A stretch of DNA of 64,000 nt from Botryococcus braunii (lineage: Eukaryota > Chlorophyta > Trebouxiophyceae): NCBI GenBank assembly GCA_002005505.1, contig KV908509.1, positions 41,001 through 105,000 on the forward strand, given 5' to 3'. The notes under the pieces were generated by a model that worked only from the letters and a program-made list of their open reading frames with translations, made no database searches and was not told where the DNA came from. Shown piece by piece: positions 6,441-46,115 of this stretch. The stretch's first letter is position 1. Each line of letters starts with the position of its first letter. The position numbers and the translations under genes were made by a program.

Positions 6441-7134
6441 TGTTGAGTTCTGAACATTATTATTGAATGCCTTGTGCTTTAAGTGATCTTCATGTGTGCA
6501 CTATTAGGATATGGGTCCATTGAGAACATAAGGTACCTTGAGACACGGCAGATTCTGGACGTTTTCGAACATAAGGTACAATCCTATCTAGATCACACGT
6601 TTGTCGGATGAACTCTTAAGGCTGCCCCACCGGAGTGAATACCAACTGGTTGTGAAAGATGCTGGGCATCACCAGATGCTAGTCTTGTCCGACAGTTGTG
6701 TGTGGCACTCAGCAGACAGTCGTACGGACTGTAGCTGGAGTAACTTCGTCTATTGACGACCTGTCTGCTTTGTACAGGTACGGTGCGGCAGTGTGTGTTG
6801 TATCATTGTTGCTATTGTGAGAGTGAACAAGCTTAGTGTACCCTGTAGTCACTCAAACAGATAAGGGACAGTGACTTCAGGGAGTATAGGCATGTACTTG
6901 AACGTAGCCGTCTAGAGCCTTATCTAGTGATTGCTTGATCGGTGCTTGTGTACAAGATAATGATGTAACGGAACTGGTTGTGAAAGATGCTGGGCATCAC
7001 CAGATGCTAGTCTTGTCCGACAGTTGTGTGTGGCACTCAGCAGACAGTCGTACGGACTGTAGCTGGAGTAACTTCGTCTATTGACGACCTGTCTGCTTTG
7101 TACAGGGAAAGCCGATTGCCCATAACCTTTCACA
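6441..7134 (+). repeat. Element A 3' LTR (694 bp, alpha-1 type) with duplicated unit
   Basis: Begins TGTTGAGTTC and ends TTTCACA. It contains a perfectly duplicated 135-bp unit at 6644-6778 and 6972-7106, period 328 bp. The first unit starts about 30 bp after a TATA-like TCTTAAGG (6614) and ends TACAG|GTACGG; the second ends in a pyrimidine-rich TTTGTACAG|GG. Only 28 bases follow the second unit. A solo LTR of the same type and length is at 41551-42244. Confidence 0.9.
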
Positions 7135-7500
7135 CTCCCCCTTGGAACTGGCTCATAATCCATTTAAATGCCACTGCTGCAGATTCAGCAAATGCCACCT
7201 TCTGAGCCCACACTTCTGGAACCTTTTGCAGCAACAAATGCAGTGCCACTGCATCCCCTTTAGTCCCCGGCATGGACGTTTTTAGGCATTCCAGCACATT
7301 CCTGCTCACGGCACAATGGAACACATTTTGTTTCCAGATGTCCAACGAAAAACCCAGTCTATCTAAGGAGGTGGTGACCTGCAGACTGGAGTTCACTGGA
7401 CTCGTCGGATCTTCCCGGCCAGATGTACTGGCCGGTTCAGATCCCCTAGCCACTGCCGTTCCAACTCTTGAATCTCTTCCCATGTCAGTCGCTGTAACCC
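7135..7500 (-). pseudogene. gag: Element F gag, N-terminal part
   Basis: The open frame on the minus strand (continuous from about 7603) shows the copia Gag pattern: a tryptophan after the first helix (SLDIWKQNV), then MPGTKGDAVALHLLLQKVPEVW, matching MPGTIHNAAAMLLLYESVPEEW in C1. It ends exactly where A inserted. It is in a different frame from the upstream ORF ending at 7393 and overlaps it, so either the upstream ORF and gag overlap or a frameshift joins them. Confidence 0.65.
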
Positions 7501-8373
7501 CATCACTGGTTCCAGCCACCCCCGTGAGATCCCCTCGTAGGTCTGGAAGTAATCCGGATGGAGCCGCAACGGATTGAGTCCCAGCTCCTCCACCTCCCTC
7601 CATGATGGCAGTCGGTCAAATACTGCCTTACTCTGCCCTTGTTGTAAACGGAACTGGAACTGTACCAGCTCGATATACACGTGGTATTCTCTGTACCACC
7701 TGAGTACCTGTCCTGTACCCTCTCTTCCCTCAACAATAGCTCTGTCGAGAAAGAACGAAGGAAAACCTTCCCGTGGCCCGTCTGCAGTTAGCTTAAATAA
7801 CTCCTGCAAACGGTTCCACACTTTCAGAAAATAGTGCACCTCCCAGTCTTCTTTTGGAAGGCTCTTCCCGTATAGCTCTGCTACCTCATGCACCAGGCTA
7901 TCAGCAAGGGGATCACTGAACACAATCAATTCCTCCCACTTGACCAAAATGGGCTCCTCTCGTGGCTGTGTCAGACCAGCCAAGAATGCCGTTGATATGA
8001 TTCCTTCACACAGAGCGGACCCTTCTTCACTTTCACAAGTCTTAACAAAGATGTAGTTTGCTCGTTCAACAGGATCAGGAAGATTGTTCAGCACAATGTC
8101 TTGGTGATGCACAATTGGCCTTTGAAATTGACCCTTTGGAACACCAGGCCTCTCAATATGAATATACAGACCCGGGTCTCCAAAATAGTCAGGAACTTTA
8201 AAGTGAGTCCTGACAAAAGGAATGGGATACTCTGAGTATTCCGGTCTTCTTGGATGCTGTTGACGTACTGCAGGTCGCAGTCCTCTTCCTCTCGTTGTTG
8301 GGAAAGGTCTCGGCGTCCGTTGCTCTTCAGGTTCCGGTGTATCTTCGATCACAATGACTTCCTCCTCTGGCAT
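7393..8373 (-). CDS. Element F upstream ORF, 326 aa, unknown function
   Basis: A long intact ORF between the primer-binding site and gag. The start ATG is at 8371-8373, about 20 bases from the PBS-like site. The N-terminus is acidic (EEEVIVIEDTPEPEEQ), then arginine-rich, then a globular, aromatic-rich region (LYIHIERPGV, WEVHYFLKVWNRLQELF, WYREYHVYIELVQFQ). No transmembrane segment or known domain is recognised. Copia elements normally begin with gag, so this is an accessory ORF; C1 also has one at the same place (11695-12219) without obvious similarity. It could be a large extension of Gag through frameshifting. Confidence 0.6.
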   Translation of the reverse strand: MPEEEVIVIEDTPEPEEQRTPRPFPTTRGRGLRPAVRQQHPRRPEYSEYPIPFVRTHFKVPDYFGDPGLYIHIERPGVPKGQFQRPIVHHQDIVLNNLPDPVERANYIFVKTCESEEGSALCEGIISTAFLAGLTQPREEPILVKWEELIVFSDPLADSLVHEVAELYGKSLPKEDWEVHYFLKVWNRLQELFKLTADGPREGFPSFFLDRAIVEGREGTGQVLRWYREYHVYIELVQFQFRLQQGQSKAVFDRLPSWREVEELGLNPLRLHPDYFQTYEGISRGWLEPVMGLQRLTWEEIQELERQWLGDLNRPVHLAGKIRRVQ

Positions 8374-8382
8374 GCATCAAGT

Positions 8383-8397
8383 TGTGGGCCCAGCACC
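8383..8397 (-). promoter_or_regulatory. Element F primer-binding site (degenerate anticodon-arm type)
   Basis: On the minus strand the sequence after the LTR reads AAAGGTGCTGGGCCCACA. It aligns with the GGTTATGGGCCCAC site of C1, B1 and B2 except at two bases. It is probably the same half-tRNA initiator-Met site with changes. Confidence 0.45.
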
Positions 8398-8464
8398 TTT
8401 GTTGTGTATTAGTTGGAGGATGCCGTAACTGTAAGCGGTACGTATGCCGTAGGAGAATCACTTT

Positions 8465-8789
8465 CTGTGAACACCACCAAGTAATCTCAATGTCCATATA
8501 GACCAGTGCTCGCACTGCCGTCTATATCTGCCGACTGCTCTCCGATCAGGACACCCTTGGCCCTTCAGCAGTCCCAGGAGTTTAATGGCTACTCCCAACC
8601 AATCGCTATAACCAGTGTGCAACTCGTCACACACAAATAGCCTTACTGTTCGCACAACAGTAACATACAAGCAATGCAGCTCATGTATTGAAATGAATGT
8701 GACAGCAGTATATCAAGCAGTCCTTCAATACAGAGCAAACACTATTCAGCTTGGAGCTCGAAGCCCAGATGCATTCCACACCCCATCGA
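8465..8789 (-). repeat. Intronless (spliced) copy of the F leader block, 325 bp
   Basis: Four segments of 107, 79, 72 and 67 bases lie back to back (8683-8789, 8604-8682, 8532-8603, 8465-8531, sense order). Each equals an exon of the block at 8818-9455, with three mismatches in 325 bases. In the sense direction it is followed by AAAGTGATTC, where the intron-bearing copy has GTAAAT. Confidence 0.9.
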
Positions 8790-8817
8790 CTGTTACAAAT
8801 GGTTTACGTATATTTAC
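8790..8817 (-). other. 28-base spacer between the two F blocks, GT...AG bounded
   Basis: In the sense direction the spacer begins GTAAAT directly after the last exon and ends AACAG directly before the intronless copy. It therefore looks like a splice donor joined to an acceptor, but is too short for a normal intron. Confidence 0.7.
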
Positions 8818-9455
8818 CTGTGAACCCCACCAAGTAATCTCAATGTCTATATAGACCAGTGCTCGCACTGCCGTCTATATCTGCCTGCACCCGAGCGTTA
8901 CGATTTACTTGTGGGTTCATCAGTGTCCATAAAATATATCTAAACCACATAAAACACACACGCAACCTATCCACATATGTGTACGTACCGACTGCTCTCC
9001 GATCAGGACACCCTTGGCCCTTCAGCAGTCCCAGGAGTTTAATGGCTACTCCCAACCAATCTGCACAATATGTGGATCATCAGAGATCAAAACAAAACAG
9101 TTACTTAACCAGCAGGAGCATGCTTGTTATACGTATCTGTACTCACCGCTATAACCAGTGTGCAACTCGTCACACACAAATAGCCTTACTGTTCGCACAA
9201 CAGTAACATACAAGCAATGCAGCTCCTGCAACACAAGACACATGTAATGTTTCATAATCAGCAGAAACATCAGTATGCATGTGCTTAACGCCTACGATCG
9301 CAGCCACACGACTGCGACCGTTACCCTTGCCAGCGATCGCAAGCTTACCTGTATTGAAATGAATGTGACAGCAGTATATCAAGCAGTCCTTCAATACAGA
9401 GCAAACACTATTCAGCTTGGAGCTCGAAGCCCAGATGCATTCCACACCCCATCGA
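8818..9455 (-). other. Intron-containing F leader block: four exons, three introns
   Basis: Sense order: exon a 9349-9455, exon b 9147-9225, exon c 8989-9060, exon d 8818-8884. Introns are 9226-9348 (123 nt, CAG|GTAAGC to TTGCAG), 9061-9146 (86 nt, GTGAGT to GTGCAG) and 8885-8988 (104 nt, GTACGT to GTGCAG). Exon boundaries are proved by the contiguous copy at 8465-8789. Exon a starts about 33 bases after a weak TATA-like CATAGAAA (about 9481-9489 on the plus strand), so it may mark the transcription start. The exons hold no long ORF and look like an untranslated leader. Confidence 0.85.
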
Positions 9456-9902
9456 CTGCCAAGCTTGCTCGCGATCTGGCGTTTCTATGCCTTCTGATCG
9501 TAACCGGCGGTAACGGTACAGTTCCTTTCGAGAGGCTGTACCGTACTGCATGGTCACATAAACAACCCTGACTTGGCCCTATGCCAACGTGTAGCTCTAT
9601 AGCTGCACCAGGGATCTCATACTTATACACGCGTACACACTCAATGGAGTCTTTACCTTGTGACCTTACCGTCACTAGTACAAGACCTGTACTGCATGGA
9701 GGTCACTTATATGATCAACCTAACTGAACATAATACAATACCCTTTGACACGCAATCAGGCGCATCTTCTTACTTGTACTCCACACGTGGAGAAATTCAA
9801 GTTATACAATGTTTCCTAAAACCACTTGATAAACTGATAGCGCCCGTGTATCTAGTACGTTTGCCATCACGTATCTATACGTACCAATCAGTTTATACAA
9901 CA

Positions 9903-10289
9903 ATAGCCAAGCATGCAAAAGGTGAGAAGCTTCCTCAATCCAATTCTGCCAACATTGATCCTAAAGCACCGAAAGGTGAAGAAGGGAATGATAAGGGTGG
10001 CAAGAAAGGAGACAAATGGAAGAACAAAGGCAAGGCTGCTGGTGCTGATGTTTTCAAAGAGGTTCCTGCTACTTCTTTCATGCTCCAGATAGATGATGGT
10101 TTAGATGAGGAGGAGGATGTAGATATTGGTGGTATGTCAGACAACCCTGCACTTACTAGGCCTAGTGCAATAGGAAGGTCTGCAGTACCAGTGCCACAAA
10201 AATCAGATAGAATCACGAGGTTGCGTTCTGCAGTAGAACCGTTTCAAGTTAATCAAATTACTGCAGTCAGGAAAACCGTGTATCAATCC
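9903..10289 (+). other. Unassigned ORF fragment (lysine-rich then acidic)
   Basis: An open frame of about 130 codons, lysine-rich (KGGKKGDKWKNKGKAAG) followed by an acidic stretch (IDDGLDEEEDVDIGG), between the F LTR and the truncated gag of C0. Composition resembles the region between Gag and protease of some gypsy elements, but no motif is diagnostic. The apparent ORF starting at 9660 runs through the F LTR and only its part after 9903 belongs here. It could be the insertion site of F or C0, possibly part of the M element seen after 46115. Confidence 0.3.
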
Positions 10290-10909
10290 AATATATGGCA
10301 GCCAATGAGGCAAAGGGATCTCTTCTTGCAGTACTGGAGGCCATGCCAGGCACCTTGCATGATGTAGCAGCATTACTACTGCTATATGAATCCGTGCCAG
10401 AAGAGTGGCAGGGTGAATTGTCTGAGATGCCTTCTGCATATGATGCTTATGAGTACATATGCAGGAAATTCATTGGTGGCTACAATTTTCAAGCAAACAT
10501 GGACTGGTTGCAAGAGATGAGTCAGGGCATGAGGCATGATGAAACCATTTCTCAGTATGTGAACCGTCTGCTCAACCTCAAGGCCTGCCTTCACAGAAAC
10601 AATCGTCACCTGATGGATGGTTTTGTAGCTACCCAAATCGTGCAGGGCCTCCCTGATGCAGCCAAGGAGCCTGGCAGCCTGTCCTCAGCCGTTGCACACC
10701 CACTCAACAAGCTCGCAGAACTCATGCGCACCACTCCTGCAGCCCTGGGCTTTGACGAGACAGCTCCCCGCCAGCCCAGAGTCCTGGCCATTGCCCCAGG
10801 TACCAGTGGAGCCAGCAACCCACCAGCCGCAAGTGCAGCCAACACACAGCAGACCACTGGACCCCCTGAGCCCAAGGGAGTATGCAATTACTGCAATAAA
10901 AAGGGACAC
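10290..10909 (+). pseudogene. gag: C0 gag, truncated at the 5' end, cut inside the zinc knuckle
   Basis: Copia Gag (UBN2-type) from ANEAKGSLLAV onward, matching C1 Gag from about 12455. MPGTLHDVAALLLLYESVPEEW and QEMSQGMRHDETISQYVNRLLNLK are typical. The CCHC zinc knuckle begins CNYCNKKGH and is split by C1 after 10909; its last part (YWRDC) is at about 18237-18252. Roughly 75 N-terminal residues are lost. Confidence 0.85.
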
Positions 10910-11637
10910 TGTTATAATAGTGAAAGAACAATTAGTGACTTTCCCTCAGAAGAGTAATAGTGGTCAGGCTTCTCTAAAGCAATCACTGTGAACAATCTCA
11001 GAGGTTGAGTAATGGATGGCAGAACTCTAGAGTTCTGCCATAATTGATCTAGACTGATTCCACTTAGGAGAAAGAGAGTAATGCAATTTGACACGTTTTT
11101 GCTAGAAAGGATATAAGCAGCCGGCATGAAGGGCTCGGCACTTGTTTGGGACTGAAAGAGCACTACGGGTGCTTATCTCTGATCAGTTGCCTCAAGTGTC
11201 AACACATAGTCGGGCTCTGCTTGCTCTCCTACACACAGCAAGAGACCCGACCGAGCTTAACACCCTTCGTGCCGGGACATACAGGTAAAGTGCTGCATCT
11301 TAGTGTGATTTGTATGAACAATTGATTAGGAAGAGGTCTAGATAAGAGTATTAGAATGTTGCTAATGCTTGGCTCATCGAACAATGGTAATGCGGACTAT
11401 CTGTCGATGCGTAGAAGAGGTAGTTTGAATTCCTTGGCGTTGAGAGAGAGCAAGAAGCAATGTAATGACTTGTTTGGGACTGAAAGAGCACTCCGGGTGC
11501 TTATCTCTGATCAGTTGCCTCAAGTGTCAACACATAGTCGGGCTCTGCTTGCTCTCCTACACACAGCAAGAGACCCGACCGAGCTTAACACCCTTCGTGC
11601 CGGGACATACAGGGAACATTACGCCCAGAATTGTACA
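10910..11637 (+). repeat. C1 5' LTR (728 bp) with duplicated unit
   Basis: Begins TGTTATAATAG and ends TTGTACA. A 146-bp unit lies at 11140-11285 and 11468-11613 (period 328), differing at one base. Unit 1 ends CATACAG|GTAAAG, a strong donor; unit 2 ends CATACAG|GGAAC after TTAACACCCTTCG, a plausible branch site and pyrimidine stretch. Each unit can fold into a long hairpin (GTCGGG and AGCAAGAG arms). Only 24 bases of U5 follow unit 2. Confidence 0.93.
11112..11140 (+). promoter_or_regulatory. C1 LTR TATA box and inferred transcription start
   Basis: TATAAG at 11112-11117, in GGATATAAGCAGC, is the best TATA box in the LTR. The duplicated unit begins 28 bases downstream (11140), the usual distance to a transcription start. 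Confidence 0.65.
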
Positions 11638-11652
11638 GGTTATGGGCCCACC
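11638..11652 (+). promoter_or_regulatory. C1 primer-binding site, initiator tRNA-Met anticodon arm
   Basis: GGTTATGGGCCCACC directly follows the LTR. GGTTATGGGCCCA is complementary to the anticodon stem-loop of eukaryotic initiator tRNA-Met, not its 3' end. Drosophila copia and yeast Ty5 are known to prime from a cleaved half of this tRNA at the same place. Confidence 0.82.
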
Positions 11653-11694
11653 AACTCTTGAGCTGGGCAACTGAAAGTATGTTCCGAGCCTACG

Positions 11695-12219
11695 ATGGGA
11701 CGAACGAAGCACAGCGGAAGGATGTCGACCGGCGGTAAAAGACCTTTTATTCCCCCACCTCCTTCACCACCTACATATGATAGCCTGAGGCGAGCTGGAG
11801 GAGATACGGGACCGAGAACACCAGAAGAACGAGCATTTCTAGTGAAGGATTTTGTCAGCCGCGCGTACGGACTGGGCAAAGTCGAACAGCCTCAGTGGTT
11901 CAGACGACGATTCTCTGTTTACCCAGCCTACAAAGTAACTGCGTGGGAGTGTTCATTCATCAACGCGGATCGAGGCTTCGTCACGCGAGCATTATTTGAG
12001 CGGCATCTACAACAGATCGGAGGACCCAGCAAACCCGAGTATTGGGAAGAAAGCGCAGCCTACACAGCAGTGGAGTGTGCTCTCGCCACTCTTGACGAGG
12101 ACTTCCTACTTTCCCTTCTGGGCAGCATAAAAGGATTCAGCCCAGAGGAGTGGTGCACGGACACAGATAACGGAGACGAAGACGGGGACTCGCAGCGTTC
12201 AGAACCTAACGCAGACTGA
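11695..12219 (+). CDS. C1 accessory ORF upstream of gag, 174 aa, contains PPTY
   Basis: An intact ORF that starts with ATG 43 bases after the primer site and ends 16 bases before the gag ATG. The N-terminus is basic and proline-rich with PPPPSPPTYDSL; PPTY fits the PPxY motif by which many retroviral Gag proteins recruit NEDD4-type ubiquitin ligases (the role here is inference). The middle is globular (FSVYPAYKVTAWECSFI, RALFERHLQQIGG) and the tail very acidic (EEWCTDTDNGDEDGD). No family is recognised. Copia elements usually lack an ORF here. B2 has none in its 30906-31342 leader; F has a different one. Confidence 0.7.
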   Translation: MGRTKHSGRMSTGGKRPFIPPPPSPPTYDSLRRAGGDTGPRTPEERAFLVKDFVSRAYGLGKVEQPQWFRRRFSVYPAYKVTAWECSFINADRGFVTRALFERHLQQIGGPSKPEYWEESAAYTAVECALATLDEDFLLSLLGSIKGFSPEEWCTDTDNGDEDGDSQRSEPNAD

Positions 12220-12235
12220 GTGACATTCGAGCAAC

Positions 12236-15200
12236 ATGGCGAGAAAGAGATCTAAATCAAGGGAGCCATCAGAGGAGGAGCCCACAACAGAGGAGGCGTC
12301 TACATCGTCTCCCACACGACAGCCGTGTACACCCAGCACATCAAAGGGCGAGGGAGATGTACTTCCCAAGGTCATAGCCACCCAAGTCAAGGTGCATATT
12401 AAGCTGGATCGTCATGGCACAAATTTTGTGGTATGGGACAATGCCTTTACTGCGGCCAATAGTGCTAAGGGTTCTTTTCCTGCCATTCAGTCAGCCATGC
12501 CTGGAACTATCCATAATGCGGCTGCAATGCTTCTGCTGTATGAGTCAGTTCCAGAGGAATGGTTAGGAGAAGTGTCAAGTAAGCCGTCAGCATATGATGC
12601 ATATCTGTTCATTTGCAAGAAATTTGTTGGTGGTTACAACACTCAAGCCAATGCAGACTGGCTGAAGGAAATGTCAAGAGGGATGAGACGTGGAGAAACG
12701 ATCTCTCAGTATGTGTCTAGAATGATAAATCTCAAAAGCTGCTTGAAACGCAATGGACATGACATCTTAGATGGTCATGTGGCCACTCAGATAGTGCAGG
12801 GACTGCCAGCAGCAGCTAATCCTCCCGGGCTGTTACTCACTGCAGTAGCTTACCCCCTGGATGAACTGGCAGCTCTCATTTCCACCACTGCAGAGGCTTC
12901 TGGCTACAACGATGATGGAGAACAGCCTGCCATGGTGATGAAAGCAATGCCTGCTCAACTAGAGACTGCTCCAGCCCCTTCCACTAGTGGGGCCAATCCC
13001 TCCAAACAGCCAGCAGACACAGAATCAAGGGGAGAAGTGAGAGGCACGTGCAACTACTGCCACAGGAAAGGCCATTTTTGGAGAGACTGCCGCAAACGTC
13101 AAAGGGATGCAGAGACACAACGCAATGTGGTGGCAGCTGTACAACAACTTACTGCCATGTGGCCCCAAGGACAGTTTCCTGGTGCACCCCAGCCACCTCC
13201 AAGCGTGCAGCATGCATTCCCATGCACTGGAGCGTTCCCACTGCTGCACCCTCCTCCAGGCCCACCTTCTCCTCCCTCAGAAGGTATGCCATACGTGGTA
13301 TCTTATAATGTGCTGGATGGCAGTAAACACCAACAGTCCAAACAGTCGTGGCTTGTGGACAGTGGAGCGTCTGTACATCTTGTGAACAACCTTTCCCTGC
13401 TGCATGCCCCTACAGTACATGACCACCCTATTCCACTGCTGCTCGCTACATCTGATGCCACTGGGGGTATTGTTGCTACTGGGTCAGTGTGTCTCATGTC
13501 CTCTCAGCATATTCCAGTGTGGCTGCATCATGTCCAGTGTGTTCCCTCAGCCACCACCAATATTTTATCAGTATCTGCTGCTCTGCGCGATGGAATCCGG
13601 TTCAGTACAGATAGACTGGGAGCATTCACTGCTGTCTCAGGACCGAGTGGTTGGCAGATGCCTGTGAAACCAGAGAATGGGCTCTATTATATCCATAACT
13701 GCCTCCCAGTAGCACCAGTGAAGGTTCCTTATTCAGTAAAAGCTGCTCTGAAGAAGAAATGCTCCAGTGGTCAAAGCCATGACTGTGCCAAACGTTTCCT
13801 GTGGCACAGCAGATTGGGACACCCAGGAGATCCATGGATGAAACGCCTGAGCAGTGAGCAACTGGTTACTGGCCTAGACACCTTAATGTCCCCTTGTGAA
13901 AAGTGTCCTAAGTACTGTGAAGCATGCATTGAGGGGAAGCATGCACGTCCCCCATTTGGTGAAAGCTCTAGACCTGCTGAGAAACCCCTTGACAGAATCC
14001 ACATCGACACTGTGGGCCCCATATCACCAGCAGCCATTACTGGGGAACGCTTTTGGGTAATTGTAACTGATCAGGCATCTGGATGGAAGGCAGTGCTGCC
14101 AGTGAAGTCAAAAGATGTAATTGGAGCTGTTGTCAGAGACCTAATCTTGTATTGGCAAACTGAGAAGGAAACTACAGTGAAGTGCATCCGCTGTGACAGA
14201 GGCACAGAGTTCTTAAATGCCAAGTTCAAGGAATTTTGTGCATCCCAGGGCACTAAGCTGGAGACATCTGCCCCATATACCCCTCAGCAGAATGGAGTTG
14301 CTGAGAGAGCCAACAGAACCCTAAGGAGCGGACCAGAACCCTTCTAAACTTTGCTGCAGCAAGCCCTGTCATGTGGAAGGAAGCCCTGGAGACAGCCTGC
14401 ACCCTCCTAAATATGGGACCCAGCACAGGCAGGCCCCTATCTCCCTGTGAAATGTTCATGGGATATAAACCAGATGTATCCTTGCTGCGCACATGGGGAT
14501 GCCTTGCGTTTGTGCACGTTCCTGATCAGCAGAGGGGGGTTTTTGCACCAAAGGCTGTGGCTGGGATGTTCACTGGTTACTCTCCGGTGTCAAAGGCATA
14601 CCGTGTCTATATGGGAGGGGGGATCTGGAGAGAGAGCAGAGATGTCCAATTTGTAGAACACATTCGAGGAGCTACTCGGGTGGGAATGGCAGCTCTCCCT
14701 GACCAGCCCCAGCAGTTCTCATACCCTGAAGACCTACCAGGGCAAATGTACAGCAGCAACCCAATGAGGTCATTGCCACAATGCAGCACGCAGAATCAGA
14801 CTGTCAGCAGCCCATGCTCCAGCATTAGACCTGACAGCTCCTTCCCAGTACCCTCTGACCAGGCTGCAACTGAGCCTGATAGTCAGGGGAAGTCTTCCCA
14901 AGAGGAGGGCATCCCCAATGTGACTCCTGAATCAAGCACGGGAGAACAGCAGCCGGACTTGGATCAGTCCGGGGCTCTGGACGCAATTCAACGACTGGCG
15001 CGAGGAAGTTCGGACAGCGGGCAACACCAACGGATATTAGATCGAGCACAGCAGTCACTGCGTAACACTCTTCCGGCAATGACCATTCCGCCTCCGGATG
15101 GACTGTCGCGGGCTCAACGCTATGAGCAACGAACTGCGGCTCGAGATATCCTGCTGGCACAGGATAAGGGAGAGAGCTGTGAGCGAGAGGGGATGACTGA

Positions 15201-17487: not shown

Positions 17488-17494
17488 GGAAAAG

Positions 17495-17505
17495 TCAAGG
17501 GGAAG
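17495..17505 (+). promoter_or_regulatory. C1 polypurine tract
   Basis: The AAGGGGAAG purine run directly precedes the 3' LTR start TGTTATAATAG at 17506. Confidence 0.85.
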
Positions 17506-18233
17506 TGTTATAATAGTGAAAGAACAATTAGTGACTTTCCCTCAGAAGAGTAATAGTGGTCAGGCTTCTCTAAAGCAATCACTGTGAACAATCTCAGAGG
17601 TTGAGTAATGGATGGCAGAACTCTAGAGTTCTGCCATAATTGATCTAGACTGATTCCACTTAGGAGAAAGAGAGTAATGCAATTTGACACGTTTTTGCTA
17701 GAAAGGATATAAGCAGCCGGCATGAAGGGCTCGGCACTTGTTTGGGACTGAAAGAGCACTCCGGGTGCTTATCTCTGATCAGTTGCCTCAAGTGTCAACA
17801 CATAGTCGGGCTCTGCTTGCTCTCCTACACACAGCAAGAGACCCGACCGAGCTTAACACCCTTCGTGCCGGGACATACAGGTAAAGTGCTGCATCTTAGT
17901 GTGATTTGTATGAACAATTGATTAGGAAGAGGTCTAGATAAGAGTATTAGAATGTTGCTAATGCTTGGCTCATCGAACAATGGTAATGCGGACTATCTGT
18001 CGATGCGTAGAAGAGGTAGTTTGAATTCCTTGGCGTTGAGAGAGAGCAAGAAGCAATGTAATGACTTGTTTGGGACTGAAAGAGCACTCCGGGTGCTTAT
18101 CTCTGATCAGTTGCCTCAAGTGTCAACACATAGTCGGGCTCTGCTTGCTCTCCTACACACAGCAAGAAACCCGACCGAGCTTAACACCCTTCGTGCCGGG
18201 ACATACAGGGAACATTACGCCCAGAATTGTACA
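17506..18233 (+). repeat. C1 3' LTR (728 bp)
   Basis: Identical to 10910-11637 except for two bases, one in each duplicated unit. Units are at about 17736-17881 and 18064-18209. It ends TTGTACA followed by the TSD GACAC. Confidence 0.95.
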
Positions 18234-20575: not shown

Positions 20576-21275
20576 TGTAAAAGGTTCTGGGCAGTGGCGT
20601 ATCCTGTAAGCAAGCACACAGGTCGTAAGTTCGTGCCTCTCCGGCTACAGTCCTCGACGACTGTCTGCTCTTTAGACACATGCAACTGTATGAACAAGAC
20701 TGGCATCCTTATGTGCCCAGTATCTTTCTAAACCAGTTCCGTTACACGTTGATCTGTCAATGAGCATCTACACACGGATAAGCTCCCGACGGCTGAAAGC
20801 AAGTACCTTCCTATACTCAATCAAGACTCCTTCCCTTTGCTGTTTGGGAGACTTGATTGTACACTAAGTTGGTTCACTTACAAACAAGCAATCAGACATG
20901 AACACATTACCAATACACACCCTGCGTCACCGCACCTGTAAGCAAGCAGACATGTCGTAAGTTCGTGCCTCTCCAGCTACAGTCCTTGATGACTGTTTGC
21001 TCTTTAGACACATGCAACTGCATGAACAAGACTGGCATCCTTATGTGCCTCTTATCTTTCCAAACCAGTTGCTTGACTATGCGGTGATCGCAGCTTTAAT
21101 AGTCCTTTCACACTAACGCGTAATCTAGATCAGATTGTACCTTATGTTCGAAATCGTCCACAATCTAACGTGTCTTAAGGTACCTTATGTTCTCAATGGA
21201 CCCTTATCCTAATAGTGCACATCTGAAGATCATTTAAAGCACAAGGCATTCAATAATAATGTTCAGAACTCAACA
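20576..21275 (-). repeat. B1 3' LTR (700 bp), two repeat units
   Basis: Sense start TGTTGAGTTC (from 21275), end CCTTTTACA (20576). Repeat unit 1 is at 20935-21070 and unit 2 at 20602-20738 (one base longer), period about 332. The C0 frame runs by chance into this LTR, which makes a chimeric ORF at 20408-20731 that is not a gene. Confidence 0.92.
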
Positions 21276-21290
21276 CTTCCCCTTGCCTGC
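21276..21290 (-). promoter_or_regulatory. B1 polypurine tract
   Basis: Sense GCAGGCAAGGGGAAG directly upstream of the 3' LTR, identical to that of element A. Confidence 0.85.
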
Positions 21291-26974: not shown

Positions 26975-27342
26975 TGTAAAAGGTTATGGGCAGTGGCGTA
27001 TCCTGTAAGCAAACAGACAGGTCGTAAGTTCGTGCCTCTCAAGCTACAGTCCTCGACGACTGTCTGCTCTTTAGACACATGCAATTACATGAACAAGACT
27101 GGCATCCTTATGTGCCCAGTATCTTTCCAAACCAGTTGCTTGACTATGCGGTGATCGCAGCTTTAATAGTCCTTTCACACTAACGCGTAATCTAGATCAG
27201 ATTGTACCTTATGTTCGAAATCGTCCACAATCTAACGTGTCTCAAGGTACCTTATGTTCTCAATGGACCCATATCCTAAAAGTGCACATCTGAAGATCAT
27301 TTAAAGCACAAGGCATTCAATAATAATGTTCAGAACTCAACA
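26975..27342 (-). repeat. B1 5' LTR, short form (368 bp), one repeat unit
   Basis: Same start and end as the 3' LTR, but a single unit (27002-27137) lies between U3 and U5. It lacks one unit plus the spacer, 332 bp. The TATA-like TATTAAAG region is kept (around 27162-27169 on the plus strand). Confidence 0.92.
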
Positions 27343-30204: not shown

Positions 30205-30905
30205 TGTTGAGTTCTGAACATTATTATTGAATGCCTTGTGCTTTAAGTGATCTTCAGGTGTGCACTATTAGGATATGGGTCCATTGAAAACGTAAGGTAC
30301 CTTGAGACACGTTAGGTTGTGGACGCTTTCGAACATAAGGTACAATCTGATCTAGATTACGCGTTAGTGTGAAAGGACTATTAAAGCTGCAATCACCGCA
30401 CAGTCGAGCAACTGGTTTGGAAAGATACTGGGCACATAAGGATGCCAGTCTTGTTCACTCAGTTGCATGTGTCTAAAGAGCAGACAGTCGTCAAGGACTG
30501 TAGCTGGAGAGGCACGAACTTACGACCTGTCTGCTTGCTTACAGGTGCGGTGACGCAGGGTGTGTATTAGTAATGTGTTCATGTTTGATTGCTTGTTTGT
30601 AAGTGAACCATCTTATTGTACAATCAAGCCTCCCAAACAGCTAAGGAACGGAGTCTTGATTGAGTATAGGAAGGTACTTGCTTTCAGCCGTCAGGAGCTT
30701 ATCCGTGTGTAGATGCTCATTGACAGATCAACGTGTAATGGAACTGGTTTGGAAAGATACTGGGCACATAAGGATGCCAGTCTTGTTCACTCAGTTGCAT
30801 GTGTCTAAAGAGCAGACAGTCGTCAAGGACTGTAGCTGGAGAGGAACGAACTTACGACTTATCTGCTTGCTTACAGGGGAAGCCGATTGCCCATAACCTT
30901 TTACA
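30205..30905 (+). repeat. B2 5' LTR (701 bp)
   Basis: TGTTGAGTTC to CCTTTTACA. A 136-bp unit is at 30410-30545 and 30742-30877 (period 332, three differences). TATTAAAG at 30379-30386 lies 31 bp before unit 1. Unit 1 ends TTGCTTACAG|GTGCGG; unit 2 ends TTGCTTACAG|GGGA. The end of U5, GCCCATAACC, can pair with the primer site GGTTATGGGC across a 7-base loop. Confidence 0.93.
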
Positions 30906-30920
30906 GGTTATGGGCCCACG
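30906..30920 (+). promoter_or_regulatory. B2 primer-binding site, initiator tRNA-Met anticodon arm
   Basis: GGTTATGGGCCCACG directly after the LTR, the same half-tRNA site as in C1. The remaining leader to 31342 has no ORF. Confidence 0.82.
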
Positions 30921-32815: not shown

Positions 32816-32848
32816 GCAAGGTATGGAGGCGCTGGATGGGGCACAGGG

Positions 32849-33297
32849 TGTAGTGAGATGCCGCGTCAGCGCGACGCGTCTCACGTAGGATGTGCGCGTA
32901 GTTCATGTTTCTTCGTGCCCTTTGGGATACGAGTAGATCTCGTTGTCCTTGTGTGTAGGAAAATGACTGTAATATCCTAGTGGGTCTCCTCTCGTCATCC
33001 ATATCGTTATGCTCGCGAGAGCATCTCGTAGAGGGACGACGTAGCCGGATCCGCGCATAGGTGGACTAGGAACTCGGGTGGTTATCATTGTCTTTGGGTT
33101 TTCTGTTACAAGGGAGGCATCTAGAAATATCTTTATTGGTCATAATATATTGTTCTTTGGAGACTCGGACGACCTGCGTGAGGAGGGCTGCGAACTTGTA
33201 ACGGATTGGAACTTCGATTTCTACCTTCGGTGTCACCCTTGCCTGATACCCTTGCTTAGCTTGTTATAAATCTTAGTTCACGTCTCACTTCGTTAAA
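32849..33297 (+). repeat. K 5' LTR (449 bp)
   Basis: TGTAGTGAG to CGTTAAA. The only good TATA box, TATAAA at 33265-33270, lies about 28 bp from the LTR end, which would put transcription start at the LTR boundary. Confidence 0.92.
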
Positions 33298-33376
33298 TTG
33301 GTATCGGCGAGAGGTTGGAGCCTCGAACCGAAGGGAGACGTAGGGAAGGTTGTAATTGCATTGTTCCATTGATATG

Positions 33377-34584: not shown

Positions 34585-34595
34585 ATTCTGAAGCC

Positions 34596-38576: not shown

Positions 38577-39025
38577 TGTAGTGAGATGCCGCGTCAGCGC
38601 GACGCGTCTCACGTAGGATGTGCGCGTAGTTCATGTTTCTTCGTGCCCTTTGGGATACGAGTAGATCTCGTTGTCCTTGTGTGTAGGAAAATGACTGTAA
38701 TATCCTAGTGGGTCTCCTCTCGTCATCCATATCGTTATGCTCGCGAGAGCATCTCGTACAGGGACGACGTAGCCGGATCCGCGCATAGGTGGACTAGGAA
38801 CTCGGGTGGTTATCATTGTCTTTGGGTTTTCTGTTACAAGGGAGGCATCTAGAAATATCTTTATTGGTCATAATATATTGTTCTTTGGAGACTCAGACGA
38901 CCTGCGTGAGGAGGGCTGCGAACTTGTAACGGATTGGAACTTCGATTTCTACCTTCGGTGTCACCCTTGCCTGATACCCTTGCTTAGCTTGTTATAAATC
39001 TTAGTTCACGTCTCACTTCGTTAAA
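38577..39025 (+). repeat. K 3' LTR (449 bp)
   Basis: Direct repeat of 32849-33297, followed by the TSD CAGGG. Confidence 0.93.
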
Positions 39026-40137: not shown

Positions 40138-41337
40138 CAGCCATGAAGGGACCTGAAGGGTGGTGTGGAGATCTCACCCGAGCACGAGGTCTGGTTTTTT
40201 TGGAGTTTGTTAGTCCTGTCAGAGGGCAGCAAGTTGGCTGCAGACATATTGATCACAGGGCTGAGGCGTCTCATCTTAGGAAAGGACACGTGTTTAGCGA
40301 GAGATCTCTGTGGCATGCTAGGTTAGGTCATCCTGGTGCCAGCAGCATGCTGAGGTTCTCCAAGGAAGATCTGGTTATAGGAATCAATATCTCCCTTGCT
40401 CCCTGCTCTGAGTGCCCTATACACTGTGAATCGTGTATACAAGGGAAACACTCCAGACCTCCTTTCCCTGTATCTTCCAGGCCTGCACATAACCCACTCG
40501 ATAGAGTCCATGTGCATACTGTGGGTCCCATATCACCTCCGGCCATCACAGGTGAACGATTTTGGGTCAGTGTAGTGGATGAAAGTTCAAACCAAATTGC
40601 CTCCCTGCCTGTGAAGTCAAAGGATTGCATTCCAAAGGCTGTGATAGATCTGCTCCGGTTTTGGCAGACCCAACAAGGCACAGTTGTGAAGTGTGTGAGG
40701 ACTGACAGGGCTTCAGAGTTCCTGAACCAGCAATTCAAAGAGTTTTGTGCTCAGCAGGGCACTAAGATGGAGTCCTCAACGCCCTACACGCCTCAGCAGA
40801 ATGGGGTGGCGGAGAGGATGAATATGACCCTGAAGGAGCGGACAAGGACTCTGTTGGTCCATGCTGCAGCAGACCCTTCCCTGCGGAAGGAGGCGCTTGA
40901 GACAGCTACCCTCCTCTACAATGTGGGTCCTACTTCAGGCAGGTCCCTGACCCCCATGGAATTATTCTTTGGTGTCAAACTTGATGTGTCTGTGCTGCGC
41001 ACGTTTGGCTGACCCCCATGGAATTATTCTTTGGTGTCAAACCTGATGTGTCTGTGCTGCGCACGTTTGGCTGTGTAGCCCATGTGCACATTCCCAATGG
41101 TCAAAGGTCTGTTTTTGGGCCCAAGACCATCCCTGGGATGTTTACTGGTTATTGTCCCCAGTCTAAGGCGTATCGTGTGTACGTGGGGAATGGAGTGTGG
41201 AAGGAGAGAAGGGACGTCAGCTTTATCGAGCACTTGAGGGGGGCGAGAGAGTGGGTCTATCAAAGGTCCAGCCTGGGTCTGTCTATGATTCTAGGATATC
41301 ACCCCCCCTTGGCAGTGAGAATCTGCCAACGCCTCAA
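40138..41337 (+). pseudogene. pol: B2 integrase region
   Basis: Resumes B2 pol with AMKGPEGWCGDLTRARGL, GAG-pre-integrase and integrase core. The first catalytic Asp is His (HVHTVGP, about 40512); the second is kept (RTDRASEF) and the Glu is kept (QNGVAERMN). A 62-bp tandem duplication (40948-41009 and 41010-41071) shifts the frame and creates a stop. A further frameshift is at about 41245, in a G run. At 41337 the 202-bp solo LTR interrupts it. Confidence 0.88.
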
Positions 41338-41539
41338 TATAGTGGCAAAGGAAGAGAGAGAGAGACGAGACACCAGTCAGGTTAGAGCATTCAGCGGAAT
41401 CTGTTACAAGCCGGTCAGCACCGGGACTTCCTTCGACGCCAAGACGCGTGCCACTTTCCAGAACCTTCATTTCAGGACCCGGCAGCTTCCTGCCCAAAAT
41501 CCTACACATTTCAGGACCTGGCAGCTTCCTGCCGTTACA
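41338..41539 (-). repeat. Solo LTR of 202 bp, TSD CTCAA
   Basis: Flanked by CTCAA at 41333-41337 and 41540-41544. Sense start TGTAACGGC, end CACTATA. It contains a 27-bp direct repeat whose core GGCAGGAAGCTGCC is nearly palindromic, and a GA run at the end. No internal element copy is in the window. Confidence 0.75.
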
Positions 41540-41550
41540 CTCAAGCAATT

Positions 41551-42244
41551 TGTAAAAAGTTATGGGCAATCGGCTTTCCCTGTACAAAGCAAAGAGGTCG
41601 TCAATAGACGAAGTTACTCCAGCTACAGTCCGTACGACTGTCTGCTGAGTGTCACACACAACTGTTGGACAAGACTAGCATCTGGTAATGCCCAGCATCT
41701 TTCACAACCAGTTCCGTTACATCATTATCTTGTACACAAGCACCGATCAAGCAATCACTAGATAAGGCTCTAGACGGCTACGTTCAAGTACATGCCTATA
41801 CTCCCTGAAGTCACTGTCCCTTGTCTGTTTGAGTGACTACAGGGTACACTAAGCTTGTTCACTCTCACAATAGCAACAATGATACAACACACACTGCCGC
41901 ACCGTACCTGTACAAAGCAGACAGGTCGTCAATAGACGAAGTTACTCCAGCTACAGTCCGTACGACTGTCTGCTGAGTGTCACACACAACTGTTGGACAA
42001 GACTAGCATCTGGTAATGCCCAGCATCTTTCACAACCAGTTGGTATTCACTCCGGTGGGGCAGCCTTAAGAGTTCATCCGACAAACGTGTGATCGAGATA
42101 GGATTGTACCTTATGTTCGAAAACGTCCAGAATCTGCCGTGTCTCAAGGTACCTTATGTTCTCAATGGACCCATATCCTAATAGTGCACACATGAAGATC
42201 ACTTAAAGCACAAGGCATTCAATAATAATGTTCAGAACTCAACA
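41551..42244 (-). repeat. Alpha-1 solo LTR (694 bp), TSD CAATT
   Basis: Same family and length as the LTR of element A, in inverse orientation; TSD CAATT at 41546-41550 and 42245-42249. Repeat units at 41907-42041 (first in sense) and 41579-41713, period 328. It was left by recombination between two LTRs of an inserted element. Confidence 0.93.
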
Positions 42245-43077
42245 CAATTCCCTCTGCTGCTCCACCCACGTTCTGGGATGAGGATGATGACCATGAAGTG
42301 GAGCCGCTTGCCACTGGGGCTCGTGGGACCTCCGGACTTCGTGCTTGGGATCAGTCTGGAGAAGGGACCATAACAACACATGACCAAGGAACCTCCAGCA
42401 GCCTTGATTCCACTGTTGGGACCCCAGAACCATCTCAGCACTCGTGGTCGGTGCTTGAGCATATGCAGAATCTGGCCAGGGGGGGTGTAGAAACTCAATC
42501 CCAGGTAGAAAAAATGCAGAAGGTACAAGAGGGGTTGCGAATGCAGGGGAAGTCACAAATTCCCCTTCCTCCAGGGACCACCTTTACAAGGGAGCAGCGC
42601 CATGAACAGCGCGTGGCTAGGAGAGAGCATTCTGACATCCCATTGCATGCCCCCGACCCAGGTCAGGCAAGTGTGAGTGAGCCAAACATGGTGGGTCTCC
42701 CTGATATGCAGAGGCAGGTTGAGACAATCAAGGCTATGCTTGGTGCAGATGTGAGAGATGAGAGTAGTGGGTTGGACATACCAGCAGTAGGGGAAGCAGG
42801 TGCCCAATCCGAGTCACTGGCTAGTCATGCTTATGGTGTGCAGGCTGACATGGTAGGCGCAGCTCAGGCAAGCGTGGGTAGTGTGCCCAAGTGTGAGTCC
42901 AGGAGAGAGAGAGAGCTGCGACTTCCCTCTGCATTGAGAAGGGTGCGAGAATGTAAGCTGCACATGAGTCCAGTAGTCAAGGAGAGAGAGAGAGAGACTT
43001 GAGAAGGAATCATATAATGCTGGCTGTACTGCCCAGTCCCAGCATAAGGTACAGAATGTACCTTATTCTGGCAACCA

Positions 43078-43112
<35 letters not shown>

Positions 43113-44780
43113 GAACAGCACCACTAAGGCTGACAGTCCTGCTGCACCACAGCATAACGTACAGAGTGTACCTTCTGTCAGATTGGGAAAAGTTCACGTG
43201 CCCTCGAACTTGAGGGAAGCCCAGCGCTCACCTCAGTGGGAGTTTTGGCAGCAGGCAATGCAAGAGGAGATGGAGTCATTAGACACCCATGAGGTTATGC
43301 AATATGTGGAAAGACCCCATGGACAGCAAGTTATTCCTGTTCATTGGATATTATCTACAAAGAACGATGCACATGGTAATGTCACTCGGTTTAAAGCAAG
43401 ATTGGTTGCCCAGGGTTGCAGCGAGATCCCTGGGATAGATGTTGGGGATGTATTTGCACCCACCAGCAGCTATGGGGCAAGGAGGGCTGTGCTGGCAGTG
43501 GCTGCCACACAGAATCTTGAGATCGACCAAGTGGATATCAAGACGGCTTTCTCAATGGGGAGTTGGAGGAAGAGGTCTATGTGACCCAACCATCAGAATT
43601 TGAGAATGACAACACGAGGGTTGTGTGCAAGCTCAGGAAGGCACTCTACGGTCTAAAACAAGCCCCACGGGCTTGGCACAAGACCTTGAGTTACATGTTG
43701 AGCGTGATGGGGTATAGTGTGTGTAAGAGCGATGGTTGGGTGTACATCACGAGGGCCCCTGATGGTAATCTGTCTTTTATTCTTGCTTATATCGATGATC
43801 TTCTTATAGTTGCCAGAGTGGTTGCAGAGATTGAGTGGGGGAAAGAGTTGTTGAAGAAGGACTTCACCATCCATGATTTGGGAGAGGTGAATGATTTCCG
43901 GGGGTGTCAGGTCCAACGCAATAGAGTTCAGGGCACTATTTCCATGAGTTGCACTCCCAAAATCGATGCTCTTGTGGAGAAGTTTGGCATTGCTGATGAT
44001 GGGCGTGTGGTTGATACCCCCATGTCCAAGGACTTCGTGGCTAGCAGCAGACCCGAGTCCTCAGATGGTATGTCACATGGGGCAGGTACCCCTCTGCCAC
44101 CTGGTCATCGATACTGCGAGTTGATTGGATCGTTGCTGTACATTGCCAATACGACCCGGCCTGACACTTCTCAGGATGTTGGAGTGTTGTCAAGGTATAG
44201 AATGACACCCACTACCTCACACTGGAATGAGGCCATTCGAGTGCTGAAGTACTTGAGAGATACCAGAGAATTAGCTCTTACTCTGGGTGGAAAGGGGCCT
44301 GAGCTAGAAGGCTATGTTGATGCCGACTATGCTGGGGACCTGGACCACAGGTATTCCACCACTGGCTATGTTCTATCAGTCTATGGTAGTGCCGTGGTTT
44401 GGGGAAGCAAGAAGCAGAGCTCAGTTTCTACCTCAATTGTGCAAGCCGAGTTTATGGCAGCCGGCCATATTGTGAAGGACGCCAACTGGCTTAGGGGCTT
44501 CTTGGAAGAGATAGGGGCTGCACCTTTTTGCACCAAAATTTTCTGTGACCAAGGATGCAACCAAGGATGCATTTCCAATTTACGGAACCCCCTTTATTCC
44601 AAATCCACAAAGCATGTTGCAGTAAGCTTCCACTATGCTAGGGAAGCTATGGCACTTGGGCAGGTAGATATCCTCTATGTGGAATCTGGTCGCAATGTGG
44701 CTGACATTATGACCAAGCCACTTGCTAAGCCCGTGTTTGTTGGTCATCGTGATTCACTAAGTTGGAGAAGATACACATAA
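42245..44780 (+). pseudogene. pol: B2 linker, RT and RNase H
   Basis: Continues the B2 linker (PPTFWDEDDDHEVE type, then 42298-43002), frameshifted near 42990 and at a GA repeat (43080-43109). RT from 43183; motif A is followed by a one-base deletion at about 43552; motif C is YIDD instead of YVDD (about 43790). The RNase H region has VDADYAGD and a small duplication giving DQGCNQGC where other copies have DNQGC (about 44550). Stop at 44778-44780, then the tract AAGGGGAAG. Confidence 0.88.
43080..43110 (+). repeat. GA microsatellite in the B2 linker
   Basis: About 14 GA units. Element A has much shorter GA runs at the same linker position (about 4741-4757), so the array expanded in B2. Confidence 0.85.
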
Positions 44781-44800
44781 AGCATGCAGGCAAGGGGAAG

Positions 44801-45476
44801 TGTTGATTTCTGCACATTATTATTGAATGCCTTGTGCACTATTAGGATATGGGTCCATTGAGAACATAAGGTAGCTTGAGACAAGTTAGGTTGTGGACGT
44901 TTTCAAACATAAGGTACAATCTGATCTAGATTACGCGTTAGTGTGAAAGGACTATTAAAGCTGTGATCACCGCACAGTCGAGCAACTGGTTTGGAAAAAT
45001 ACTGGGCACATAAGGATGCCAGTCTTGTTCACTCAGTTGCATGTGTCTAAAGAGCAGACAGTCGTCAAGGACTGTAGCTGGAGATGCACGAACTTACGAC
45101 CTGTCTGCTTGCTTATAGGTGCGGTGACGCAGGGTGTGTATTGGTAATGTGTTCATGTTTGATTGCTTGTTTGTAAGTGAACCATCTTAGTGTACAATCA
45201 AGCCTCCCAAACAGCAAAGGGACGGAGTCTTGATTGAGTATAGGAAGGTACTTGCTTTTAGCCGTCAGGAGCTTCCGTGTGTAGATGCTCATTGACAGAT
45301 CAACGTGTAATGGAACTGGTTTGGAAAGATACTGGGCACATAAAGATGCCAGTCTTGTTCACTCAGTTGCATGTGTCTAAAGAGCAGACAGTCGTCAAGG
45401 ACTGTAGCTGGAGAGGCACAAACTTACGACCTTTCTGCTTGCTTACAGGGAAGCCGATTGCCCATAACCTTTTACA
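44801..45476 (+). repeat. B2 3' LTR (676 bp)
   Basis: TGTTGATTTC to CCTTTTACA. Units at 44984-45119 and 45314-45449, period 330. Unit 1 ends TTATAG|GT (a C to T change). About 24 bp near 44837 are deleted relative to the 5' LTR. It is followed by the TSD CTATT. Confidence 0.92.
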
Positions 45477-45481
45477 CTATT

Positions 45482-46115
45482 CCGTCAGTGACAATAATAA
45501 GGGACAAATAGGGCGAAACTATGGTGATGACGTAGTTATCATGAATTTGAATGTAGATAAAGGTAACGCAAGTTACAGACACGTTTGCTGCAGAAAGGTA
45601 GTGGTGGTTGCACGGATAGGCAAGGCACTTGCTTGGGACTACACAAGCACTCCGGGTGTTTCTCTAACGTTGCCAATCAGTCCTGTATTGTCCATGTCCT
45701 TGTCTCTACTCTCCGACACACAGTAGAGAGGACAGTGGTTAACACCCTCCGTGCCGCCACTGCACAAGTAACGTGATTGTGAATAGATAAGAACATTTGA
45801 GGCGTTGTAAGCCGTTAAGATATCATGTTAGGTGTATGTGCTTGACTTTCTTATCATCGGACAATGAGATTGATCCTATCTGAGTGAGAACCGGTTAGGG
45901 TAGTTTGAATTCCGTTGTTAAGAGAGAGTGAGAGAACAGTTTGTAAGAGACTTGGTTGGGACTACACAAGCACTCCGGGTGTTTCTCTAACGTTGCCAAT
46001 CAGTCCTGTATGTCCATGTCCTTGTCTCTACTATCCGACACACAGTAGAAAGGACAGTGGTTAACACCCTCCGTGCCGCCACTGCACAGGAATACGCCAA
46101 GCCCATAACCTAACA
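45482..46115 (+). repeat. C0 3' LTR, remainder
   Basis: Continues 30149-30204 after B2. Repeat unit at 45627-45768 and 45950-46090 (one indel), with GGGACT, GCACTCCGGGTG and TTAACACCCT shared with the C1 unit. Unit 1 ends CACAA|GTAACG, unit 2 CACAG|GAAT. LTR end GCCCATAACCTAACA. Total LTR about 690 bp. Confidence 0.87.

Follow-up and report, generated by a model that had tools for sequence, protein, structure and literature searches.

LTR elements carry the same sequence at both ends of their RNA, and the poly(A) signal is ignored at one end and used at the other. Replication through a spliced RNA ordinarily erases introns. In HIV-2/SIV, leader splicing takes place within R-U5; the likeness to the algal LTRs described below is that an intron is taken out of the 5' LTR transcript, and the difference is that R is not duplicated and the genomic RNA is unspliced. 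The foamy (spuma) virus donor serves RNAs with acceptors outside the LTR. This major splice donor is part of R and precedes the poly(A) signal, and U1 snRNP at the donor suppresses the 5' poly(A) signal, reportedly independently of splicing (available part of PMC3694450). As far as that part describes the virus, it resembles the algal LTRs in having a donor inside the transcribed LTR and upstream of the poly(A) signal, with the 5' copy of the signal suppressed and the 3' copy used; the same order, CAG/GT (CAA/GT in C0) followed by TGTAA, is found at the motif level only in all six algal families compared. Unlike in foamy virus, the algal LTR contains an acceptor motif as well as a donor motif, the acceptor that matches the repeat edge being at the end of unit 2; the signal would lie inside the intron and R would be doubled. 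Ogre and EVADE, the latter a Ty1/copia element, are plant LTR retrotransposons with functional introns and thus also LTR elements of the green lineage; their introns make subgenomic RNAs, and the available part of the source does not describe an LTR intron that needs regeneration (PMC12786077). A search of open-licence titles and abstracts, a scope outside which most subscription journals lie, retrieved no description of an LTR-internal intron with a doubled R.

The window, that is, the whole stretch of 64,000 nucleotides of Botryococcus braunii analysed here (contig KV908509.1), contains nine recognised copia LTRs. A unit of 135-146 bp is present twice in eight of them and once in the ninth (Table 1). 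The two copies within one LTR are 91-100% identical (A, 135/135; C1, 145/146; C0, 137/142; B1 3' LTR, 125/137; A-type solo LTR, 133/135; B2 LTRs, 133/136 and 130/136). In all seven LTRs listed by an earlier sequence-only reading, GT directly follows the first unit and not the second, and TGTAA lies in the spacer (X), starting 6-8 nt upstream of unit 2. The unit coordinates of that reading were all checked, and the doubled unit is present in each LTR it listed. However, its statement that all copia LTRs are doubled was too strong: the B1 insertion is mixed, with a single-unit 5' LTR and a two-unit 3' LTR flanked by a matching 5-bp target duplication, and three-unit LTRs also occur. The gypsy LTRs designated D (32849-33297 and 38577-39025) lacked internal repeats in a self-comparison, and Rfam matched neither the window nor any of three loci. 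The RuBisCO large subunit gave no match in the assembly; light-harvesting proteins served in its place.

Table 1. Copia LTRs of the window and their internal features (slashes mark the edge of a unit)
Feature	Coordinates	Strand	Details
Family A 3' LTR (TG...CA)	6441..7134	+	unit 1 6644-6777, then CAG/GT donor; putative intron 6778-7105; TGTAA 6964-6968; unit 2 6972-7105; U5 7106-7134
Family C1 5' LTR	10910..11637	+	TATAAG box; unit 1 11140-11284; putative intron 11285-11612; TGTAA 11461-11465; unit 2 11468-11612; PBS from 11638
C1 5' LTR flank			5-bp target duplication GACAC
Family C1 3' LTR	17506..18233	+	TGTAA 18057-18061; layout as in C1 5' LTR
Family B1 3' LTR	20576..21275	-	units 20935-21070 and 20603-20738; TGTAA 20742-20746
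B1 5' LTR	26975..27342	-	U3-unit-U5, one unit, without spacer; target duplication AATCT
Family B2 5' LTR	30205..30905	+	unit 1 30410-30544; putative intron 30545-30876; TGTAA 30734-30738; unit 2 30742-30876; PBS GGTTATGGGCCCAC from 30906
Family B2 3' LTR	44801..45476	+	TGTAA 45306-45310; target duplication CTATT with B2 5' LTR
A-type solo LTR within B2	41551..42244	-	two units; TGTAA 41717-41721; target duplication AATTG
Family C0 LTR remnant	45627..46115	+	two units; TGTAA 45942-45946; donor CAA/GTAACG; U3 truncated or unrecognised; end coordinate approximate

The copia-type reverse transcriptase domain RVT_2 was found in ORFs of A and C1 (E-values 7.1e-63 and 2.2e-64, respectively), in the A element within ORF 3958-6417. 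Ty1/copia hallmarks are present, namely, TG..CA LTRs, the PBS GGTTATGGGCCCAC and the polypurine tract GGCAAGGGGAAG upstream of 3' LTRs, and the 5-bp target duplications are GACAC, CTATT, AATCT, AATTG, ATTAC, AACTG and GAAAC. The PBS is complementary to the anticodon arm of what we take to be the plant tRNA-iMet, which may not be that of this alga; Drosophila copia is primed by a half-tRNA taken from within initiator tRNA-Met. The family A LTR has at least 40 further copies in the genome, 100% identical over 694 bp, and a genome-wide RVT_2 search gave 2658 candidates, 150 matches of which were scored. Scanning a viral contig collection twice for copia relatives confirmed none.

Layout was compared in representatives of six families belonging to four unit lineages (A/B, C, E and F). 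Relatedness between A and B (75% unit identity) and between C1 and C0 (69%) limits what this comparison can show. The order read directly from the DNA is constant: TATA-like box (5/6 families), ~30 nt, C/A, unit 1, CAG/GT, spacer, TGTAA, unit 2, CAG/G and U5. C/A marks the start of unit 1 in all six families, 28-31 nt past the TATA-like box in the five that have one (the box is weak in A and B), and GT follows unit 1 in 6/6 families and unit 2 in none. As the sequence-only reading had stated, the units differ strongly between families, their identity across the four lineages (47-59%) being close to the maxima of 30 shuffles (50-57%). The proposed combination of TATA box and donor stood as regards GT after unit 1 and failed in C0, which has no clear TATA box and ends the putative exon at the donor in CAA; in the B2 3' LTR this end is TAG. 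Similarly, the period of 322-332 bp is valid for A, B and C but not for E and F, where it is 147-152 bp.

From this layout we infer the transcription start, splicing, poly(A) site and strand transfer of a copia LTR that is probably of the form U3-R-X-R-U5, with a putative intron in the 5' LTR and with unit 2 renewed in each cycle. Transcription would begin with the first base of unit 1 in the 5' LTR, and the intron would extend from the CAG/GT ending unit 1 to the CAG ending unit 2. Its removal would join one unit to U5 and also discard TGTAA, which would otherwise terminate the RNA early. Chlamydomonas uses TGTAA as its principal poly(A) signal, which precedes the poly(A) site by 14 nt on average (PMC3439250, available part). 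The motif starts 6-8 nt 5' of unit 2 in 6/6 families, and in none of the six was it found in the final 34 nt upstream of unit 1; it is unchanged in 27/27 B insertions, while two of the next three bases are variable. This position suggests that the 3' transcript should end just within unit 2, before the acceptor, so that the spacer would be spliceable in the 5' LTR only. TGTAA would explain how one sequence can be an intron when transcribed from the 5' LTR yet supply the RNA 3' end in the 3' LTR, where cleavage ~6-12 nt into unit 2 would take the acceptor off the transcript and leave X in the RNA. Strong-stop minus DNA (U5 plus unit), extended up to the cap, would then anneal to the 3' end of the RNA, where unit 2 contributes its first ~10 nt, and the new LTR would consist of U3, unit 1, X, a second unit copied from unit 1 of the parental 5' LTR, and U5. 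Each cycle would therefore regenerate the intron and renew unit 2 from unit 1, whereas transfer onto unit 1 would yield a single-unit LTR. Against this scheme, the predicted transfer pairing is only ~6-12 nt, versus ~100-145 nt available on unit 1.

The scheme predicts that each insertion carries a unit 2 freshly copied from unit 1. Six insertions, which is a small number, had two-unit LTRs on both sides, with exact target duplications in five and 4/5 matching bases in C690. Unit 1-unit 2 differences within LTRs amounted to 34 in 12 comparisons, and differences between LTRs (unit 1-unit 1 plus unit 2-unit 2) to 35 in 12. The count excludes elements for which no LTR was found (C93, C511, C355, C783, C402, C476, C151 and C346), C482 (3' LTR single-unit, matching target duplication ATTAC), C317 (single-unit, mismatched target duplication) and C658 (stretch ran past the contig); the pair on contig C1, whose units differ by 7 and 1, was left out because its mismatched target duplication indicates that it is not one insertion. 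The units look identical at insertion and later diverge at the rate of the two LTRs. Two observations count against renewal of unit 2: the B1 units differ at 8-11 positions, above the prediction from U3 divergence (3 in 205), and private alleles are more often confined to unit 2 (38) than to unit 1 (24). The sequence-only reading is partly supported: its core, that the unit is R, doubled in DNA but single in spliced RNA, has survived the DNA-level tests and is largely supported, whereas constancy of the period and universality of the doubling did not hold. That account lacked the strand-transfer step that would restore the intron, and neither TGTAA nor the single-unit B1 5' LTR figured in it.

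It had also proposed checking many copies for co-evolution of the units within an LTR, and this was borne out. In 27 B insertions (one LTR each), the units differ on average at 2.9 positions within an LTR versus 5.7-6.5 between insertions, a within-LTR mean reached in 0/5000 trials of partner shuffling; A and B units differ at ~36. At six B sites with the minor allele in at least four of the 27 insertions, the units agree in 27, 25, 26, 27, 27 and 27 insertions, and at two more sites with rarer alleles in 24/27 and 26/27. E units differ by 0.27 within an LTR versus 5.2 between elements (n=11). These data bear on the possibility that R comprises unit 1, X and the start of unit 2, with an unspliced genomic RNA, separately inherited units and an intron used only for a side mRNA. 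Such inheritance requires no splicing of the genomic RNA and accommodates the placement of TGTAA equally well, but unit-specific differences should grow with lineage age, whereas common alleles are found in both units of 25-27 of the 27 B insertions, B units differ half as much within an LTR as between insertions, and E units are nearly uniform within an LTR; we regard it as very unlikely. Renewal of unit 2 during reverse transcription without splicing, for instance by a jump of the enzyme over X that leaves strong-stop DNA without it, would give the same reset at the DNA level, and direct repeats are hot spots of deletion by reverse transcriptase. Yet it leaves unexplained both the GT after unit 1 in 6/6 families and the coincidence of the left edge of unit 2 with the putative cap site, and its probability appears equally slight. 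In favour of the strand-transfer scheme, the U3/unit 1 joint in E is identical in 10/11 elements, whereas the X/unit 2 joint is variable, with C, CA, T, A, CAG or CAA after TGTAA (11 elements).

The U3-R-X-R-U5 reading must also accommodate other unit numbers. Among 40 A elements picked by the 3' end of pol, and hence blind to the LTR, unit 1 of the 3' LTR continues into X in 35, 20 of which were seen as full two-unit LTRs; of the others, two are single-unit, two have X shifted and one could not be assessed. Twenty further 3' regions included 14 two-unit LTRs (11 E, and three F cut by the end of the stretch, one completed later), one single-unit LTR (L056) and five uninformative cases (L042, unreadable; L049 and L055, without a recognised LTR; L054, rearranged; L058, starting inside an A LTR spacer). 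All 11 E LTRs are two-unit. Single-unit forms are nevertheless not uncommon: probes designed to find them recovered them in 20/40 scored matches in B and 40/40 in A. Three-unit LTRs gave ten full-length matches (six in B, four in A), and B has another two that are long but partial. Single- and three-unit LTRs are a minority where sampling was unbiased, and part of them could be assembly errors. Six pairs of single-unit A LTRs lie 5989-5990 bp apart on the same strand (by coordinates only), as predicted by transfer onto unit 1. They may be elements replicating in that form, in which case doubling would not be strictly needed. Elements with one single and one double LTR (B1 and C482) call for ordinary repeat recombination in addition to strand transfer.

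Such recombination is real, and together with the one- and three-unit forms it fits a VNTR-like internal direct repeat whose copies stay alike through unequal crossing-over, gene conversion or slippage of reverse transcriptase, its splice-like ends being incidental. The sequence-only reading had named a wide spread of periods and unit numbers as the sign of such behaviour; a second period of ~150 bp and one- and three-unit forms do exist, but homogenisation after insertion does not show. Units diverge as fast as LTRs (34 versus 35 differences), of the 39 A 3' LTRs that could be assessed, 35 have unit 1 continuing into X and two are single-unit, E LTRs carry two units in 11/11 cases, and the edges of homology fall at C/A ~30 nt past the TATA-like box and at CAG/GT despite little similarity between units. 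A simple tandem repeat is therefore unlikely.

On balance, although with somewhat less assurance than for the LTR structure itself, we favour U3-R-X-R-U5 as a new LTR class with obligatory splicing in the 5' LTR, a poly(A) signal in the intron and a first strand transfer that restores the intron, present in several copia lineages of this alga and perhaps across green algae. If so, splicing would let an LTR element ignore its poly(A) signal at the 5' end and use it at the 3' end, the intron being confined to the 5' end since cleavage in the 3' LTR discards the acceptor, and the doubled R would let the intron persist despite replication through spliced RNA. Comparison of unit 1 with unit 2 in one solo LTR would then serve as an insertion clock for which a second LTR is not required.

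The window contains nested copia elements of families A, B and C (A, C1, B1 and B2), together with a solo A-type LTR, a C0 remnant and gypsy elements; genome-wide counts refer to the 176-Mb assembly containing it. A light-harvesting protein exon of this genome shows 98% identity to Botryococcus braunii, and the light-harvesting reading frames look to be of green type, which points to B. braunii or a very close relative (Chlorophyta, Trebouxiophyceae) as host. The TG...CA borders of the LTRs are confirmed by target duplications, namely GACAC (C1), CTATT (B2), AATCT (B1) and AATTG (solo LTR). The sequence-only reading had described a doubled unit, interrupted by a spacer X, in all copia LTRs. 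Its unit positions proved correct when the coordinates were re-checked, and two units are present in eight of the nine copia LTRs recognised in the window, the 5' LTR of B1 having one. As had been proposed, a candidate donor follows unit 1 only: in all seven LTRs listed in that reading, GT is found there and not after unit 2. TGTAA lies directly upstream of unit 2 in all seven.

The regions that follow another 20 copia reverse transcriptases of the genome on the 3' side were surveyed; 14 have doubled units, one is an F LTR with a single unit (L056) and five were uninformative. Two new families, E and F, were recognised (see table). Their period is 147–152 bp rather than 330 bp, so the constancy of period (322–332 bp) formerly put forward is not a defining trait. 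What the representatives of six families have in common is a fixed order of signals. A TATA-like box, weak in A and B, is positioned 28–31 nt upstream of unit 1 in five families. In all six, unit 1 begins at C|A and is followed by GT (the exon ends in CAG in five and in CAA in C0), TGTAA starts 6–8 nt upstream of unit 2, and unit 2 ends in CAG|G ahead of a short U5. TGTAA is absent from the last 34 nt upstream of unit 1 in each of the six. By simple arithmetic, we estimate that in well under 1% of random spacers a TGTAA would fall on one of three specified positions. The units themselves show little similarity among A/B, C, E and F (47–59% versus shuffle maxima of 50–57%, 30 shuffles), with A/B–C and A/B–F slightly exceeding their own shuffles.

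We consider it probable that these LTRs are organized as U3-R-X-R-U5, where the unit is R and X plus unit 2 form an intron, with the transcription start, splicing, poly(A) site and transfer point all predicted from sequence. If TGTAA is taken as the B. braunii poly(A) signal, cleavage would leave just the first ~6–12 nt of unit 2 on the 3' LTR transcript. The RNA 3' end would thus lack the acceptor, which closes unit 2, and X could be spliced out in the 5' LTR alone, with loss there of a premature poly(A) signal as well. In one study, TGTAA is the main poly(A) signal of Chlamydomonas, on average 14 nt before the poly(A) site; just 12 of 26 tails have it within 22 nt, and hence the signal is not indispensable (PMC3439250). 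The closest known logic is that of foamy virus, in which the poly(A) signal of the 5' LTR is suppressed by a splice donor lying upstream of it in R (PMC3694450). An LTR-contained intron with doubled R did not turn up among the open-licence papers listed by the literature searches.

Under the spliced-R model, strong-stop DNA made from spliced RNA would land on the start of unit 2, and the new unit 2 would copy the parent's 5' unit 1; the two units would therefore be (near-)identical at birth and then diverge at the LTR–LTR rate. Six insertions (five B, one C1) with two units in both LTRs were usable, with target duplications that are exact in five and match at 4/5 bases in insertion C690. Under ongoing gene conversion, units should differ less within an LTR than from one LTR to the other, but we counted 34 within LTRs (unit 1–unit 2) versus 35 between LTRs (unit 1–unit 1 plus unit 2–unit 2), each in 12 comparisons. 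Separate inheritance of the two units predicts within-LTR differences at least equal to those between insertions, whereas the means in 27 B insertions are 2.9 and 5.7–6.5, respectively. When unit 1 was paired with unit 2 of another insertion, a mean as low as that observed was reached in none of 5000 permutations. Given both comparisons, homogenisation of the units seems to occur at insertion, not later. E units differ by 0.27 within versus 5.2 between (11 elements), and A and B units differ at ~36 positions.

Polymorphisms are shared as well. At six unit sites where four or more of the 27 B insertions carry the minor allele, both units have the same allele in 27, 25, 26, 27, 27 and 27 insertions; for two more sites with rarer alleles the figures are 24 and 26. 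Site 50 has two exceptions, B1 and C564, both (G,A); no insertion carries this unit 2 allele A in both units, which is what non-inheritance of unit 2 would predict. Single-insertion alleles number 24 in unit 1, 38 in unit 2 and 2 in both; for alleles in at least two insertions, 60 are in both units, 18 in unit 1 only and 18 in unit 2 only. Of the earlier proposal that the unit is R, twice in DNA and once in spliced RNA, the reset and shared-allele tests on DNA favor the core, constant period and universality are abandoned, and the RNA steps stay predictions.

The stretch of one to three bases that separates TGTAA from unit 2 varies among 11 E elements (C, CA, T, A, CAG, CAA), and the U3|unit 1 joint is identical in 10 of them. 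All 27 B insertions keep TGTAA unchanged, while of the final three spacer bases two vary, one in 9 and the other in 4 insertions. Variation exactly at the predicted joint of the capped-RNA-end copy is suggestive of strand transfer, and cap-templated or slipped end bases may be its source.

Unit number varies. Using probes favoring the respective class, with 40 candidates scored each time, single-unit LTRs were 20 in B (1612 candidates) and 40 in A (1205); three-unit matches were 6 full-length plus two long partial in B (975) and 4 in A (1124). In 40 family A elements chosen by pol end, blind to the LTR, unit 1 of the 3' LTR continues into X in 35 (20 full two-unit among the matches listed, 15 by 12-letter reads without view of unit 2); two are single-unit, two have a shifted X and one is unassessable. 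One- and three-unit forms exist, with single-unit LTRs a minority in this A sample. Mixed elements, with one single-unit and one two-unit LTR (B1, C482), are best explained by post-insertion recombination between repeats. Among the matches listed, no single-unit B or three-unit match has a second of its kind at element distance, and six pairs of single-unit A LTRs, by coordinates only, lie 5989–5990 bp apart on one strand, close to 6318 minus 328. Strand transfer onto unit 1 would account for these single/single elements, which could also be a replicating lineage; single-unit LTRs might also reflect assembly collapse of identical repeats.

In the B2 U5, and similarly in A, a sense segment that we take to resemble the tRNA-iMet anticodon arm is complementary to the PBS right after the LTR, giving a hairpin whose loop holds the end of the LTR (-25.9 kcal/mol and z -6.3 for 53 nt); folding 85 nt instead gives a weaker signal (z -2.0). 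The two B U5 types may reflect recombination between families. Sharing between L088 and L089 suggests that the assembly contains haplotype contigs or duplicated ones.

Families E and F and minor features of the LTRs and assembly
Feature	Location	Unit	Spacer	Elements	Description
Family E		111–114 bp	37–38 bp	11	
Family F		~100 bp	~49 bp	3	
B2 U5 and PBS	30889-30915				GCCCATAACC in U5 (sense), its complement in the PBS
B U5, one type	30878-30905				GGAAGCCGATTGCCC, much as in A
B U5, other type	20576-20602				ATACGCCACTGCCC
B LTR array	G000:C468, L064-L066			3	like LTRs at 3478-bp spacing; tandem array of LTR + other sequence
F-type LTR	L054:388-634				exact ~123-bp tandem duplication of U3 start
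B2 coding region	40947-41073				62-bp tandem duplication, 98% match
Shared LTR	L088 (contig C648), L089 (contig C153)				same LTR + flank on both contigs
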